Below, in pieces: positions 28,128 to 50,160 of a stretch of 64,000 nt of DNA. This DNA is from Brevibacillus brevis. Its GTDB lineage: Bacteria; Bacillota; Bacilli; Brevibacillales; Brevibacillaceae. Made by a program: the position numbers and the translations under genes. The stretch lies in assembly GCF_022026395.1 (NCBI RefSeq), contig NZ_CP041767.1:2698501-2762500 (forward strand), written 5' to 3'. The number at the start of each line of letters is the position of its first letter. Position 1 is the first letter of the stretch. The notes under the pieces were generated by a model. That model made no database searches. It was not told where the DNA came from and was given only the letters and a program-made list of their open reading frames with translations.

Positions 28128-29183
28128 TCAAATGGGGCGGGATGTTTCTTTTTCATGATGAAGCAGCCAGCGTTTGCGCGAAAGTCCTCCTCCGTAACCT
28201 CCCAAATCACCATTGGAGTTGATGACCCGGTGACAAGGAATGACAATCGCTAACTGATTCGCGCCATTTGCTTGCGCGACAGCACGAAAGGCACTTGGTT
28301 TCCCAATAGCTGCTGCAACCTCAGAATAGGATGAAGTTTGACCGGGGGGGATCGATTGTAACTGCTCCCAGACCATCCTTTGAAAAGGCGATCCGCACAA
28401 AAACAAAGGCGTTGCAAATTGTGTGAGCTTTCCGTCAAAATACTCCTCTAACTCACGTTCAATGGAACGGATTGGCGCTGTGGAACCAGGGATAATCGCT
28501 GACTTCGTTCTTTGTCTAAGACGTTCAACTTCTCGTTCCAAGCCGCGGCGATCAATGAATTCAAGTAAATACAGCGCTTCTTCATCCGCGATTGCTATCA
28601 TGGGACCGAGTCGCGTATCCAGCCATGATGCCTTTAAGATATGATGATCTCCGAGAAGAGTAGGGGCTGCCCCCATGATTCGTGAAAATGCGTCTCGAAA
28701 ACCACTGCTGGACTCGTAACCGGTGGATAGTTGGGCATCAATGATGGCTTTTCCTTCTCTGATTTCTTTTAGTGCAATCCCCATACGCCGCGCCCTTGCA
28801 TACTCGACGAACGTCATGCCAAAACGTTTTTTGAATTGGCGTCGCGCTGTTGCAGCGTCCACGGATAATCTTTGAAAGTCTTTTTCCGTCCAGCGCTGCT
28901 CGGGGTTCTCTTCTACAGCGTTTACTAGCAGACGCACGAGCTCTGAGACATGATTGGGATGTGAAAGTGGACGGCAGCGTTGGCAGGGCCGGAACGAAGC
29001 CAGGAGTGCTTGTTTGGCATGATCAAAAAACTCACAATTAACAAACTTAGGTTTTCTTGCTGGACATGTCGGGCGACAGAATACGCCAGTTGTCTTGACT
29101 CCAACAAAAAAGACACCTTCATATTCAGAATTTTTATCCAGTAACGCCTGATAATACTCGGACTTCATCTCGGCCGTTATCAT
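28128..29183 (-). CDS. ada: Ada: methyltransferase/transcription regulator and O6-methylguanine-DNA methyltransferase
   Basis: Bifunctional adaptive-response protein of 351 residues in the E. coli Ada order. The N-terminal Ada zinc domain has four Cys (VFCRPTCPARKP and FRPCQRC, with the first Cys the methyl-phosphotriester acceptor). An AraC-type HTH follows (about 85-175; FQRLSVDAATARRQFKKRFGMTF), and the C-terminal MGMT domain ends with the acceptor Cys in IVIPCHRVINSNGDLGGYGGG. In B. subtilis these functions are split between AdaA and AdaB, so the fused form is notable but common elsewhere. The RBS is GGAGGGGGA. Self-methylation should activate its own promoter. Confidence 0.94.
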   Translation of the reverse strand: MITAEMKSEYYQALLDKNSEYEGVFFVGVKTTGVFCRPTCPARKPKFVNCEFFDHAKQALLASFRPCQRCRPLSHPNHVSELVRLLVNAVEENPEQRWTEKDFQRLSVDAATARRQFKKRFGMTFVEYARARRMGIALKEIREGKAIIDAQLSTGYESSSGFRDAFSRIMGAAPTLLGDHHILKASWLDTRLGPMIAIADEEALYLLEFIDRRGLEREVERLRQRTKSAIIPGSTAPIRSIERELEEYFDGKLTQFATPLFLCGSPFQRMVWEQLQSIPPGQTSSYSEVAAAIGKPSAFRAVAQANGANQLAIVIPCHRVINSNGDLGGYGGGLSRKRWLLHHEKETSRPI

Positions 29184-29339: not shown

Positions 29340-29345
29340 TATAAT
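29340..29345 (+). promoter_or_regulatory. Possible -10 of the eut leader
   Basis: TATAAT lies about 25 bases upstream of the first hairpin of the leader. No convincing -35 is visible at 17 bases, so the promoter may need an activator. Confidence 0.35.
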
Positions 29346-29370
29346 AAAAGTATTCAGAAATAGGCAAGAA

Positions 29371-29436
29371 ACCGACAACGGCGTCGGTTGCGTATTGAAT
29401 GAAGAGTAGTTGGCACGTCCGTTCACTGGTGATCGG
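29371..29436 (+). promoter_or_regulatory. Candidate ANTAR-type dual-hairpin RNA leader
   Basis: Two short hairpins each have a six-base loop with A at position 1 and G at position 4, the hallmark of RNA sites bound by ANTAR antiterminators. P1: ACCGAC-AACGGC-GTCGGT (29371-29388). P2: CCGTTC-ACTGGT-GATCGG (29419-29436), with one internal T-T mismatch. They are separated by 30 bases and P2 touches the GGGAGG RBS of the receiver gene. No terminator was found directly behind P2, so control may be on translation. Confidence 0.5.
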
Positions 29437-29447
29437 GAGGTGGAGTA

Positions 29448-29822
29448 TTGCGTCAGCATTATCGAGTCATCATCATAGACGACGACCCCATAACACGTAT
29501 GGACCTGGTCGAGATGTTGCAAGAGCAGGGATATAACGTCGTAGCTGAAGGAAAAAACGGCAAAGAGGCCGTTCGATTGACGCAAATGTGGAACCCGCAT
29601 CTCATTATTATGGATGTGAAAATGCCAATTATGGACGGTTTGACAGCGACTGGGATTATCCGAGAGCATTCGGACGCGGCTATCCTTCTCTTGACTGCTT
29701 ACAGTCAAAAGGACATGGTCATGCAAGCCAAAGCAAAAGGGATATGTGCCTATCTGGTCAAACCCGTCATGGAGGAAGAACTGCTACCGGCAGTGGAGTT
29801 CGTGCTTGTGGGTAAACAATGA
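29448..29822 (+). CDS. Stand-alone receiver domain, EutV/ANTAR-regulator type without the ANTAR
   Basis: A 124-residue response-regulator receiver. Acidic pocket and phosphate-acceptor Asp are visible in VIIIDDDPITRMDL and IMDVKMPIMDGL, with the Thr in LLTAYSQKD and Lys in YLVKPVMEEELLPAVE. The sequence style (DPITRMDL, TAYSQKD, AYLVKP) is that of ANTAR-containing regulators such as EutV and AmiR, but the protein stops after the last receiver helix (EFVLVGKQ) and no ANTAR frame follows in any register. The start is TTG with GGGAGGTGG. It directly precedes eutBC, suggesting a eut signalling role. No histidine kinase is adjacent. Confidence 0.85.
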   Translation: MRQHYRVIIIDDDPITRMDLVEMLQEQGYNVVAEGKNGKEAVRLTQMWNPHLIIMDVKMPIMDGLTATGIIREHSDAAILLLTAYSQKDMVMQAKAKGICAYLVKPVMEEELLPAVEFVLVGKQ

Positions 29823-29871
29823 ACGCAAAAAAGTGAATCGTATGAAGAGCAACGGCGCTTGGACCAAGGCG

Positions 29872-29905
29872 AGCATTTCGTCTTATGTTTCGAAGCGCTT
29901 TTTTT
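29872..29905 (+). terminator. Attenuator or terminator between receiver gene and eutB
   Basis: A TTCG...CGAA stem with AGC/GCG flanks is followed by TTTTTTT. GCGCTT at 29855-29860 could pair alternatively with AAGCGC at 29894-29899, giving competing folds. No A1/G4 hexaloop was found here. Confidence 0.55.
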
Positions 29906-29960: not shown

Positions 29961-31322
29961 ATGAAATTGGCTTGCGTTGTACGTAAACAGCATTACCAGT
30001 TTACTTCGGTTCGTGATGTATTGGCAAAAGCCAGTGAAGAAAAGTCTGGCGATCACATGAGTAAACTAGCAGCCAATTCCGCACTGGAGCGGATGGCGGC
30101 CAAAGTCGTATTAAGTGAAATGCAACTGCGAGATATATATGAAAATCCCGTCATTCCGTACGAAAAAGACGAAGTGACGCGGATCATTTATGATGATATC
30201 AATCTCTCCATTTACGATGAGATCAAAAATTGGACAGTAGGGGAGCTGCGGGAGTACATCTTGTCGTTTTCCACAGGAATGCCTGAGCTGACACGAATTA
30301 GTCGTGGGCTGACCAGCGAGATGATTTCCGCTACGGCGAAGCTGATGTCCAGTATTGACCTGGTTATGGCTTCACAAAAAATGAAGCATCAAGCCTACTG
30401 CAACACACTCATTGGCGAGCCGGGAAGACTGGCGTTCCGCTGCCAGCCGAATCACCCAATCGATGATCCCGATGGCATTTTGGCTTCGATGAAGGAAGGC
30501 TTGTCCTATGGATCAGGCGACGCTGTCATTGGAATTAACCCCAATAATGATTCCGTTGAAAGCGTTACCAAGCTCTTGAAAATGACACATGATTTCATGC
30601 AAAAGTGGGAAATTCCTACGCAAAACTGCGTACTGGCTCACATCACGACTCAGATGCAGGCTCTTCGCGGCGGAGCGCCCATTTCTCTGATGTTCCAAAG
30701 TCTGGCAGGCTCACAACGAGCGAATGATGCGTTTGGCGTAAACAAGGAGATTTTGGATGAGGCAATGGATTTGATGCTCCGAAAAGGCACAGCTTCGGGA
30801 CCAAACGTCATGTATTTTGAGACAGGGCAAGGCTCCGAAGTGTCGCTGGACTCCCATGAAGGTGTCGATATGCAGACGCTGGAAGCGCGTACGTACGGTT
30901 TTTGCCGTCACTGGAAGCCGTTTATGGTCAATAACGTTTCTGGCTTTATTGGACCAGAAACACTCTATGATGGCAGACAGATGATTCGTGCCGATCTGGA
31001 GGACTTGTTCATGGGCAAGCTGCATGGTTTGCCGATGGGAATCGCTCCGACTTATACGAACCACATGTACGCGGATCAGAATGACCAGGAGATTGCAGGG
31101 ATGCTGACGACCTTGGCAGGGGCGAATTTTTATATGGGCGTACCAGGTGGGGACGATGTCATGCTCAGTTACCAGGACACGAGCTATCACGATGACGCCA
31201 GCTACCGTGAGCTCTTGGGACTGCGACCTCTCCGGGAATTTGAGAAATGGATGGAAAAAATGGGCCTTATGGAAAATGGTCGTTTGACAGAGCGCGCAGG
31301 CGATTTAACCATTTTTGACTAA
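29961..31322 (+). CDS. eutB: Ethanolamine ammonia-lyase large subunit
   Basis: Catalytic subunit of the adenosylcobalamin-dependent enzyme converting ethanolamine to acetaldehyde and ammonia. 453 residues match the family length. Conserved segments include SRGLTSEMISA, LSYGSGDAVIGINP, QNCVLAHITTQ, the MYFETGQGSEVS core, and YTNHMYADQND near the active site. The ATG at 29961 fits the usual MKL N-terminus; a GTG four codons upstream is also in frame and the RBS is weak (AAAGTGAG). It follows an attenuator-like hairpin. No microcompartment shell genes are nearby. Confidence 0.95.
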   Translation: MKLACVVRKQHYQFTSVRDVLAKASEEKSGDHMSKLAANSALERMAAKVVLSEMQLRDIYENPVIPYEKDEVTRIIYDDINLSIYDEIKNWTVGELREYILSFSTGMPELTRISRGLTSEMISATAKLMSSIDLVMASQKMKHQAYCNTLIGEPGRLAFRCQPNHPIDDPDGILASMKEGLSYGSGDAVIGINPNNDSVESVTKLLKMTHDFMQKWEIPTQNCVLAHITTQMQALRGGAPISLMFQSLAGSQRANDAFGVNKEILDEAMDLMLRKGTASGPNVMYFETGQGSEVSLDSHEGVDMQTLEARTYGFCRHWKPFMVNNVSGFIGPETLYDGRQMIRADLEDLFMGKLHGLPMGIAPTYTNHMYADQNDQEIAGMLTTLAGANFYMGVPGGDDVMLSYQDTSYHDDASYRELLGLRPLREFEKWMEKMGLMENGRLTERAGDLTIFD

Positions 31323-31342: not shown

Positions 31343-32176
31343 ATGAAACAGATCAATATGGAAGACTTGGTCCAGCGCGTAATCGATGAGCTGTCCAAAA
31401 AAGGCCAAGGAGTTATTCATTTTCCAGAGCAAAAGCAATGCGGAGTCAAGAACCCAAACAATCCAGAAGCATTGGAGCTAGCGATGAAACGAACGCCGGC
31501 TCGCATCGGAATCGGGCGTGCGGGTACCCGAATGAAGACGGGAAGCTACCTCCAATTTCGGATTGATCAAGCCGCAGCACGCGATGCGGTCATGAAAACG
31601 ATCAGTCCAGAGCTGATCAAGAGTCTGCAGCTACCTGTCCTCCATTCAAGAGCGACGAGCATGGAAGAGTATTTAATGAACCTCGACTCCGGACGGATGC
31701 TATCGGATGAGTCCGCTCGCTGGCTGGAGCAGAATGGGGATAAAAATAAAGATGTGCAAATCGTCATTTCGGACGGACTGAGCACGTCTGCATGTGAGGC
31801 GACCATTCCAGATCTCTTGCCTGCATTGATGCAGGGGCTGTCCATGCGAAACATCAGCGTTGGGAAACCAGTGTTTATTCACAAGGGTCGCGTTTGGATT
31901 CAGGACCAGGTCGCGTCCATCGTCAATTGCAAGGTCGTCATTTCCTTGATCGGGGAGCGACCGGGGCTTGCGACGGCAGAAAGTCTCAGTGCTTACATGA
32001 TTTACAAACCGGATGCCAATACGGTAGAATCGGATCGTACGGTTATTTCTAATATTCATAAGGGTGGCACGCTTCCGATTGAGGCAGGTGCTTACCTTGC
32101 AGAGCTTTTGGAGGAAATTTTGAAGTACCAGGCGAGTGGAGTAAAATTATCACAGCTTCGGGCGATTAACGGGTAG
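31343..32176 (+). CDS. eutC: Ethanolamine ammonia-lyase small subunit
   Basis: Small subunit that helps bind adenosylcobalamin in the ethanolamine ammonia-lyase complex. 277 residues. Family landmarks are TPARIGIGRAGTRMKTGSYLQFRIDQAAARDAV, VQIVISDGLSTSA, and VVISLIGERPGLATAESLSAYMIY. The RBS is GGGGAGGGAAG. It starts 20 bases after eutB, and the pair should be co-transcribed. The coenzyme reactivase EutA and the transporter Eat/EutH are not in the window. Confidence 0.95.
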   Translation: MKQINMEDLVQRVIDELSKKGQGVIHFPEQKQCGVKNPNNPEALELAMKRTPARIGIGRAGTRMKTGSYLQFRIDQAAARDAVMKTISPELIKSLQLPVLHSRATSMEEYLMNLDSGRMLSDESARWLEQNGDKNKDVQIVISDGLSTSACEATIPDLLPALMQGLSMRNISVGKPVFIHKGRVWIQDQVASIVNCKVVISLIGERPGLATAESLSAYMIYKPDANTVESDRTVISNIHKGGTLPIEAGAYLAELLEEILKYQASGVKLSQLRAING

Positions 32177-32252
32177 ATTCCCACTGGCGCTTCCTCCTGT
32201 CTTGCACTAGAATACATAGAAGATAACCAATTTCTATGAGGAGTTGCTACGC

Positions 32253-32462
32253 ATGACGGAGCCAAACCAAAACGAAAAAGAAACCACAGAGCAAAAGCCT
32301 GGGAAGATCAGCCTGCAAGAGGCGATGAAGCGCAAACTGGCAGAGAAGAAACAAGCGCAAGCACAGGCCAATAACCCATTGAATCAAAAGGCGAAAAATC
32401 AAACGATGAAAAGCCAGCTCACCAAAAAACCAAACAATCAACGCAGACGTATGGGCGTATAG
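32253..32462 (+). CDS. Small basic Lys/Gln-rich protein
   Basis: A 69-residue hydrophilic protein starting at the ATG at 32253, nine bases after ATGAGGAG. It begins acidic (MTEPNQNEKETTEQKPGK) and becomes strongly basic, with MKRKLAEKKQAQAQANN and a C-terminal QRRRMGV. Predicted helix in the middle and disorder at both ends. It is followed by a good terminator. Function unknown; composition would suit nucleic-acid binding, but this is only a suggestion. Confidence 0.6.
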   Translation: MTEPNQNEKETTEQKPGKISLQEAMKRKLAEKKQAQAQANNPLNQKAKNQTMKSQLTKKPNNQRRRMGV

Positions 32463-48201: not shown

Positions 48202-50160
48202 GTGGTTCGTATACAGAAAATGAACCAAAAGGAACTGGATCGCTACGTTCGTGATTTTCAGCAAGCGGTTGTCGATCAGCAACTGAGCTTGTATTATCAA
48301 CCACTTTACGACCTGAGAACAGGCAAAATAATCGGAGCAGAAGCTCTGGTAAGATGGAACCATCATCAAAAAGGGCTGCTGCCCCCGGAATGGATATTGT
48401 TGTTAGCAGAAAAGAGCGGGTTGATTCTATTGGTAGAGGAATGGGTAATCAGAACGGCTTGCCAGCAGAACAAAGCTTGGCAGGACGCTGGACTACCACC
48501 GCTTGTGACATGTGTGAATCTATCATCCTCTACCTTGGAATCGGACCAGGTGGGTAGCAGGATTCAAGCGATCTTAGATGAAACAAACCTGCAGCCTCAC
48601 TATTTGGAGCTGGAATTTACCGAGGATTCGACCAGAGATGGGGAGCGTACCATCGAGATTTTAGCAGAACTAAAAAGAATCGGTGTAAAAATTAGCCTGG
48701 ATGATTTTGGGAAGGGCTATAGCAGCATTCAACATCTATCCCGCTTTGCCATGAACAAACTAAAAATCGATCAATCCTGTGTGAGGGAATGTATGAGCGA
48801 TGTCACACAGGCGACCGTTATTAAAACTGTCATGGCGATGGCACGAAGTCTAGGCGTGCAAGTAACGGCAGAAGGTGTAGAGACGCAAGAGCAACTGGAT
48901 TTTCTTTGGCAGCTTGGTTGTGATTCTGCTCAAGGATTTTGGTTTAGTGAGCCCATGCCTGCCGAAGATCTGGCTCGTGTGTTGAAGCGTGAGGAAAGGT
49001 TTAGGAACAGTGCTTTTCTATTACTCAATGGTGGACAGCACCGAGCTCTTGATCCATACGAAGTGGACCATAGTGAGCGAGGAGACGTTCTTCGCAAGCA
49101 ACAACCTGTGACCGAATCACCCTATCGATTGATCGCAGAAAACTTGTCGGATATTATCGTGATCATCAACAGTCAGGGGATGATCACGTATATTTCGCCA
49201 GCCGTTCAATCTGTCATGGCAATTGCTCCTGATGAAGTCGTGAATCGACACCTGCTAGCTGTACTACCGCTGGAAACGGGCAGGCTTGTTATGCAAACGA
49301 TTCGTCAGATCACGATGGAGAAGCAGCCTCGTCTCATTACATTTAGTTGCCCGGACCGGAATGGCAAAAAGATCACGCTGGAGGCAAAAGGCACCCCGGT
49401 TATTCGTGAAGGTCATGAGACGAACCAAGTCATCTTTATTATTCGAAATCACACGAAGCACGTGCAAACAGAAGAGTTTTTACAAAAGATAGACAAGCTA
49501 TCCGTCATTGGGCAAATGGCTGCCGGGGTTGCGCACGAAATACGAAACCCGGTAACTTCCATCAAAGGCTTCGTCCAATTGCTTCGTCGAGACCAATGGA
49601 AGCGGGAATACTTTGATATTATGCAGGCTGAATTTCACCAATTAGAGAGTGTCCTGCGAGAATACGTCTTTTTATCAAGAGAGTGCACAGAACCGTACGA
49701 ATCACAAAATCTAACGGATTTGCTGCGGCAAGTTACACGATTCATGCAAGCAAAGCTAGAGCGTCATCATTTGATGCTGGATGTCAAGGAAGTGGAAGGG
49801 ACTAGGATTTGGTGCGATCAGAATCAAATTCAACAGCTTTTCATGAACCTTCTGTCGAACTCCGTTGAGTCGATGCAGGATGGTGGGACGATTCGCATCG
49901 TGGCAAGGCATAAAAAAAGTGAGCAAGTGATGATTAAAATTATTGATCAAGGCTGCGGTATGGCGGAAGAACGGTTGAAACGATTAGGGGAGCCTTTTTA
50001 TAGCACAAAAGAAAAGGGGACCGGGCTAGGACTTATGATTTGTTATAAAATCATGCAAGCACACGACGGGTACATCCATTTTTCAAGTACCCCGAATAAA
50101 GGAACGACAGTGGAGATTTCCTTTCCACTTGGAAAATCAAACCCAAGGCTCGATCCATAA
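48202..50160 (+). CDS. EAL-PAS-histidine kinase fusion protein
   Basis: Soluble 652-residue protein joining a c-di-GMP phosphodiesterase to a sensor kinase. EAL domain about 22-262, with all catalytic positions present: E47 in EALVRW, E138 in EFTED, D167/D168 in LDDFGKGYSS, K188 in KLKID and E224 in AEGVET. PAS domain about 305-420. HisKA with phospho-His445 in GVAHEIRNPVTSIKGF, very like sporulation kinases, then HATPase_c (N-box NLLSNSVESM, G1 DQGCGM, G2 GTGLGL). No membrane segment. The GTG start is close to AGGAAGG; ATG 48220 is an alternative. Single gene. Confidence 0.9.
   Translation: MVRIQKMNQKELDRYVRDFQQAVVDQQLSLYYQPLYDLRTGKIIGAEALVRWNHHQKGLLPPEWILLLAEKSGLILLVEEWVIRTACQQNKAWQDAGLPPLVTCVNLSSSTLESDQVGSRIQAILDETNLQPHYLELEFTEDSTRDGERTIEILAELKRIGVKISLDDFGKGYSSIQHLSRFAMNKLKIDQSCVRECMSDVTQATVIKTVMAMARSLGVQVTAEGVETQEQLDFLWQLGCDSAQGFWFSEPMPAEDLARVLKREERFRNSAFLLLNGGQHRALDPYEVDHSERGDVLRKQQPVTESPYRLIAENLSDIIVIINSQGMITYISPAVQSVMAIAPDEVVNRHLLAVLPLETGRLVMQTIRQITMEKQPRLITFSCPDRNGKKITLEAKGTPVIREGHETNQVIFIIRNHTKHVQTEEFLQKIDKLSVIGQMAAGVAHEIRNPVTSIKGFVQLLRRDQWKREYFDIMQAEFHQLESVLREYVFLSRECTEPYESQNLTDLLRQVTRFMQAKLERHHLMLDVKEVEGTRIWCDQNQIQQLFMNLLSNSVESMQDGGTIRIVARHKKSEQVMIKIIDQGCGMAEERLKRLGEPFYSTKEKGTGLGLMICYKIMQAHDGYIHFSSTPNKGTTVEISFPLGKSNPRLDP

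Follow-up and report, generated by a model that had tools for sequence, protein, structure and literature searches.

A probable EutV-controlled leader upstream of a second eutBC pair in Brevibacillus brevis, with a stand-alone EutV-family receiver gene embedded in it

In the 64,000-nucleotide window of the Brevibacillus brevis chromosome analyzed here (NZ_CP041767.1, positions 2,698,501 to 2,762,500), a gene for a receiver protein lies directly upstream of genes for ethanolamine ammonia-lyase. An earlier note, made from the sequence alone, had read the leader of this gene (29371-29436) as a dual-hexaloop target of an ANTAR protein, and had pointed out that the receiver itself ends before any ANTAR domain. 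The locus raises the question of what the RNA structures control, which protein would bind them, and what a receiver without an RNA-binding domain might do at this place. The leader and the genes that follow it are arranged in this order:

29340-29345, + strand: probable -10 element TATAAT, matching the consensus and found as GATATAAT in most aligned leaders
29370-29389, + strand: P0 hairpin AACCGAC[AACGGC]GTCGGTT, an A1/G4 hexaloop with closing pairs A-U and C-G
29414-29442, + strand: helix CAC.UCC : GGA.GUG over the receiver Shine-Dalgarno (SD) sequence, containing the ACTGGT place at 29425-29430
29448-29822, + strand: stand-alone (REC-only) receiver of the EutV family, 124 aa, TTG start, without ANTAR domain (PF00072, E 6.6e-27)
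29831-29837, + strand: AAGTGAA box, at the position expected for P1 of a dual hexaloop
29847-29860, + strand: P2-type hexaloop hairpin GAGC[AACGGC]GCTT
29854-29905, + strand: intrinsic terminator, 5' arm GGCGCTT at 29854-29860, 3' arm at 29893-29899, then a T-run
29961-31322, + strand: eutB2, ethanolamine ammonia-lyase large subunit, second copy (PF06751, E 4.6e-202)
31343-32176, + strand: eutC2, ethanolamine ammonia-lyase small subunit (PF05985, E 8.1e-80)

The microcompartment operon of the same genome encodes another EutB, to which EutB2 is 60% identical. Two neighboring genes may be mentioned for orientation. A fused Ada-type alkyltransferase gene with metal-binding, HTH and methyltransferase domains (28128-29183) is divergent from the receiver transcript. 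An ORF for a lysine- and glutamine-rich protein of 72 aa without Pfam match lies 3' of eutC (32244-32462); it is 85-100% identical across Brevibacillus and adjoins the receiver gene in B. centrosporus (L040), where eutBC has been lost.

The absence of an ANTAR domain from the receiver was borne out, since the 124-aa protein matched PF00072 only and not PF03861, and its gene indeed adjoins eutB and eutC. Orthologues, all with a TTG start, were found in 20 Brevibacillus genomes, and all 20 of these genomes also carry EutV. The receiver and the EutV encoded in this genome share about 58% identity and the same phosphorylation residues, and comparison of the orthologues showed that the phospho-acceptor Asp and the active-site Thr and Lys are kept. 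Where dN/dS could be computed, values of 0.06-0.18 indicated purifying selection. When one genome of each species was scanned, the nearest matches outside Brevibacillus were EutV proteins of eut operons. In the receiver tree, the proteins formed a clade of their own (support 100/99) among EutV receivers and outside the Brevibacillus EutV clade. By its sequence, then, the protein is paralogous to, but distinct from, the receivers of EutV. A receiver split from its ANTAR domain by a frameshift was ruled out, as its end point is much the same throughout the 20 genomes and a nearby ANTAR domain was not found. Descent from an EutV gene duplicated within Brevibacillus was likewise unsupported by the position of the clade outside the Brevibacillus EutV proteins, although nearby forks of the tree have only moderate support.

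The first of the two hexaloops in front of the receiver gene was found exactly as described. The loop AACGGC occupies 29377-29382 on a perfect 7-bp stem and is conserved across the genus. We refer to this hairpin as P0. Among the eutB2 leaders of 22 Brevibacillus genomes, only that of G008 has lost P0, leaving 21 with the hairpin, of which G024 has a stem reduced to 3 bp. Alignment of 15 Brevibacillus leaders showed no variation in the loop (AAYGGC) or in the A-U and C-G pairs that close it; these closing pairs are identical to those of P1 of Enterococcus faecalis, where they matter (PMC3369931). The stem contained one covarying pair, a double change from C-G to U-A in 4 of the 15 leaders. The 16-nt core of P0, YCGACAAYGGYGTCGR, occurred as a single copy at the eutB2 locus in each of 19 genomes, and a 20th match, in G024, lay on a different contig. 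A third hexaloop of the window, AATGGC at 49515, sits on a 4-bp stem (GGCA[AATGGC]TGCC), and no adjoining terminator was found.

The second proposed hexaloop, ACTGGT (29425-29430), fared differently. It is restricted to the brevis group, its stem contains a U.U mismatch, and in the minimum free energy fold A1 and U6 of the loop pair with each other, leaving a CUGG tetraloop. In orthologues outside the brevis group, the same place reads TCTGAC, TCTTAT or TCTAAG. As the second loop is not conserved, the dual-hexaloop reading of 29371-29436 fails. An overlap of hexaloop and terminator is also absent from this stretch, the only one in the window being at 29851. For the receiver leader, Rfam returned no match at gathering score, and relaxing the threshold to E 10 added nothing relevant, ANTAR models included. 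The folding energy of the whole receiver leader was unremarkable (z -1.63).

The note had also let its second hairpin reach into the ribosome-binding site of the receiver gene. This site does lie inside a conserved structure, but the structure is a different helix, formed by CAC.UCC (29414-29420) and GGA.GUG (29436-29442). Its six pairs were invariant in 15 of 15 leaders, including the anti-SD arm, which is non-coding and yet unchanged. Because the helix is invariant, pair counts cannot prove it, and covariation speaks neither for nor against it.

A further element, absent from the earlier note, was found between the receiver gene and eutB2 (29831-29905) and consists of box, hexaloop and terminator. 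All four pairs of its hairpin GAGC[AACGGC]GCTT were formed in 15 of 15 leaders, and the hairpin agreed with the motif AGCAANGRRGCUY (PMC3369931) at 12 of 13 positions. A1 of the loop was changed to G in 2 of 22 genomes, G024 and G008. The 5' arm of the terminator, GGCGCTT, takes in the 3' arm of this hairpin; in the terminator alignment, 90% of cells were paired and 6 pairs had changes on both sides. The element thus combines an A1/G4 hexaloop on a stem of at least 3 bp with the overlap of P2 and terminator, and the same genome encodes an ANTAR protein and its kinase (EutV and EutW, see below). No stable P1 hairpin was found 5-12 nt upstream of P2, by eye or by folding. This may be of importance, as P1-P2 spacing matters in E. 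faecalis (PMC3369931, PMC8934654). In its anatomy, the element appears to be an ANTAR antiterminator, in a variant without P1 hairpin.

The place of P1 is taken by the AAGTGAA box. It can be read as A[AGUGAA]U with A1 and G4 but hardly any stem, and G4 is changed in several species. In 12 genomes, the leader of the eutL operon has the box as well, in the order box, short spacer, hexaloop, terminator, and AAGTGAA stands at the P1 place in eut sites of several Bacillaceae and of a Listeria-like family as well. The sequence AAGTGAA(T/C)A, with hardly any structure, was seen instead of the P1 hairpin ahead of the terminator-linked hexaloop in eut sites of several Bacilli (in L041, L043, L046, L054 and L024). 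The box may belong to the EutV target as a component not yet described.

If these elements are ANTAR targets, a binder should be encoded elsewhere, as the earlier note had expected. The genome search identified a single ANTAR domain, at 5.816 Mb, which belongs to EutV, with the gene for the kinase EutW adjoining. The pair lies 3.09 Mb from the receiver, in a microcompartment eut operon that has its own eutBC. EutV was encoded in 23 of 26 Brevibacillus genomes.

In order to find further sites, we built a covariance model, R1, from the box/hexaloop/terminator element. With the reservation that E-values of such models are rough, four matches at E <0.1 were obtained in the genome, all at eut genes: eutBC2, the eutL operon, the gap between eutV and eutA, and eutH. 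The eutA (E 1.5e-5) and eutH (E 5e-4) sites were outside the set used to build the model. At E 0.01 or better, R1 found matches in 23 of 23 EutV-bearing but in none of the 3 EutV-less Brevibacillus genomes. The pattern of box plus hexaloop gave two matches in the genome, both at eut, and the control gave none. Matches of the pattern outside eut in other Bacilli (e.g. L128, L129 and L145) look like chance matches in coding regions. The idea of an ANTAR target at this locus is well supported by comparison, since the hexaloop/terminator sites track both eut genes and EutV, and a four-site eut regulon at three chromosomal loci can be assigned to EutV, the genome's sole ANTAR protein. We also note that the eutH site (L190, G000:C1:1013809-1013888, minus strand), an ANTAR-type hexaloop/terminator, lies far from both eutBC loci. 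In two genomes of related genera, eutB2 follows other genes, a permease gene in G110 (L180/L186) and a gene for an EutW-like kinase in G256 (L178), with a hexaloop/terminator directly 5' of eutB2 in each.

Natural losses help to assign the parts of the leader to the genes around them. G016, G041 and G012 have no receiver gene, and all the RNA parts, from P0 through box and hexaloop to the terminator, are packed into about 150 bases 5' of eutB; the distance between P0 and P2, 474 nt in the window, is about 60 nt where the receiver gene is missing. As the receiver-bearing G024 and G008 fall outside these three in the eutB2 tree, some forks of which are weak, loss of the receiver is the simpler reading. 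Since three species do without it, the receiver is dispensable. The reverse case is G007, which has kept the receiver but neither eutBC nor the terminator element. Here P0 is degenerate and has lost A1 (GAC[TAGGGT]GTC), and the SD helix is still present. In these few cases, P0 tracks eutBC and the SD helix tracks the receiver. The suggestion that the receiver is controlled translationally through the second loop is not supported by this pattern, in which P0 is kept without receiver and decayed without eutBC. For the same reason, we regard P0 as part of eutBC control, as far as such comparisons can tell. As ANTAR domains can bind one hexaloop alone (PMC8934654), P0 is probably another site for EutV in the eutBC2 leader. 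An upstream binding or loading site for EutV appears to be its most likely role.

We consider it probable that the eutBC2 leader is controlled by EutV antitermination and that the stand-alone receiver is embedded in this leader. The element, its conservation, the regulon and the co-occurrence with EutV were read directly from sequence; building on them, we infer EutV binding, the use of P0 as a loading site, and a role for the receiver. RNA polymerase would start near 29350, transcribe P0 and the receiver gene, and stop at the terminator 5' of eutB. In the presence of ethanolamine, EutW would be activated, and phosphorylated EutV would bind the hexaloop at 29847-29860, with P0 serving as an upstream binding or loading site in the same leader. 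The 3' arm of the hexaloop, held by EutV, could then not join the terminator stem, and eutBC would be transcribed. Synthesis of the receiver, whose gene precedes the terminator, would continue with eutBC switched off. Several observations count against this model: the P1 hairpin is missing, A1 of the P2 loop is G in G024 and G008, P0 is lost in G008, the receiver is dispensable, and P0 is far from P2 even where the receiver gene is absent, whereas at the E. faecalis site a linker lengthened by 20 nt was enough to abolish antitermination in vitro.

The receiver descends from EutV receivers, occurs only in genomes with EutV and has outlived eutBC in one species, all of which suggests that it probably acts in trans, modulating EutW or EutV. 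The earlier note had already named titration of a kinase or partner as one option, and this is the role that we regard as most likely. Because the phospho-acceptor site and the EutV-type receiver are kept, competition with EutV or the formation of mixed dimers is favored. The receiver would compete with EutV for phosphate from EutW, or form inactive mixed dimers with EutV, and in either way raise the threshold of induction. A more far-reaching reading, less likely than not, would be a three-part ANTAR leader, in which P0 and the terminator-linked hexaloop would co-operate across a gene whose product, a receiver-only EutV paralogue, dampens EutV, such that the leader RNA would carry both the target and an antagonist of one regulator. 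We offer this complete scheme tentatively, as a possibility that may well not hold in all its parts.

Other explanations have to be weighed against the main reading of EutV antitermination with a receiver that acts on EutW or EutV. Stand-alone receivers often serve unrelated pathways, and there is a small but appreciable chance that this one is independent of EutV, answers to another kinase or partner, and owes its location to chance. It is dispensable in three species and was retained in one after loss of eutBC2, as such a protein might be. However, it falls into the EutV receiver clade and not among generic receivers, and every one of the 20 genomes that encode it has EutV. The proposal that all hexaloops are chance structures, with a terminator that merely ends the receiver transcript and a separate promoter for eutB, is very improbable. 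It would agree with the ordinary folding energy of the leader as a whole (z -1.63), but not with pattern and model matches that are confined to eut genes and absent where EutV is absent, or with the occurrence of P0 once per genome, at the eutB2 locus, in 19 genomes.

If the hexaloops are genuine, P0 might still serve another purpose than eutBC antitermination. Together with the SD helix, it could form a translational switch for the receiver, with EutV at P0 altering access to the Shine-Dalgarno sequence. The invariance of the non-coding anti-SD arm in all 15 leaders would be explained in this way, and the P0 loop (AAYGG) could pair with the anti-SD sequence (CCRUU) in 11 of 15 leaders, as counted by hand; moreover, Mycobacterium tuberculosis has been mentioned as having ANTAR-type hairpins that cover ribosome-binding sites (PMC8934654). 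We nevertheless consider such a switch unlikely, as the pairing contains a C-A mismatch in the other 4 leaders, P0 is intact in the three species without receiver, and it has decayed where the receiver was kept but eutBC lost, although the SD helix remains there. Use of P0 as a decoy that titrates EutV in the manner of the EutX/rli55 RNA, and not as a local control element, is quite improbable. A stable single hexaloop without a terminator of its own would be suited to this task, given that an ANTAR domain needs no more than one hexaloop for binding (PMC8934654). However, P0 is always found in the eutBC2 leader, also where the receiver is missing, and decays upon loss of eutBC, and neither a separate short transcript nor a B12 riboswitch was apparent in the window. 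The preferred reading of P0 remains that of an upstream EutV site in the eutBC2 leader.

If the receiver dampens EutV, the eutBC2 leader would belong to a two-component system that acts on RNA and encodes its own antagonist within a leader that it targets. In the open papers searched, an incomplete collection, no such arrangement of a leader was found. The eutBC2 leader also provides a natural test of a question raised previously (PMC8934654), namely whether a hexaloop can contribute to control when it is single or remote from the terminator. Brevibacillus species that have or lack the receiver gene in between offer ready-made comparisons.

The receiver resembles EutV in its EutV-type receiver domain, its phosphorylation residues and its eut neighbors, but ends after the REC domain, without coiled coil or ANTAR domain, and is encoded outside the microcompartment operon. 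With stand-alone receivers that act as phosphate sinks it shares the single receiver domain, the intact acceptor site and the paralogy to a true regulator. The difference would be that the sink proposed here, by analogy, competes for the kinase of an RNA-binding regulator. P0 is comparable to the EutX/rli55 sRNA in that both offer hexaloops that may bind EutV without an adjacent terminator, but P0 is part of an mRNA leader, has no riboswitch, and is always tied to eutBC2. The closest parallels are the EutV sites of E. faecalis and Listeria, which likewise have an A1/G4 hexaloop with a 3' arm overlapping a terminator before eut genes (PMC3369931, PMC8934654), and EutV and EutW in the same genome. 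The Brevibacillus leader differs from these sites by the AAGTGAA box in place of the P1 hairpin, by an extra, strong hexaloop further upstream, and by a whole receiver gene in between.
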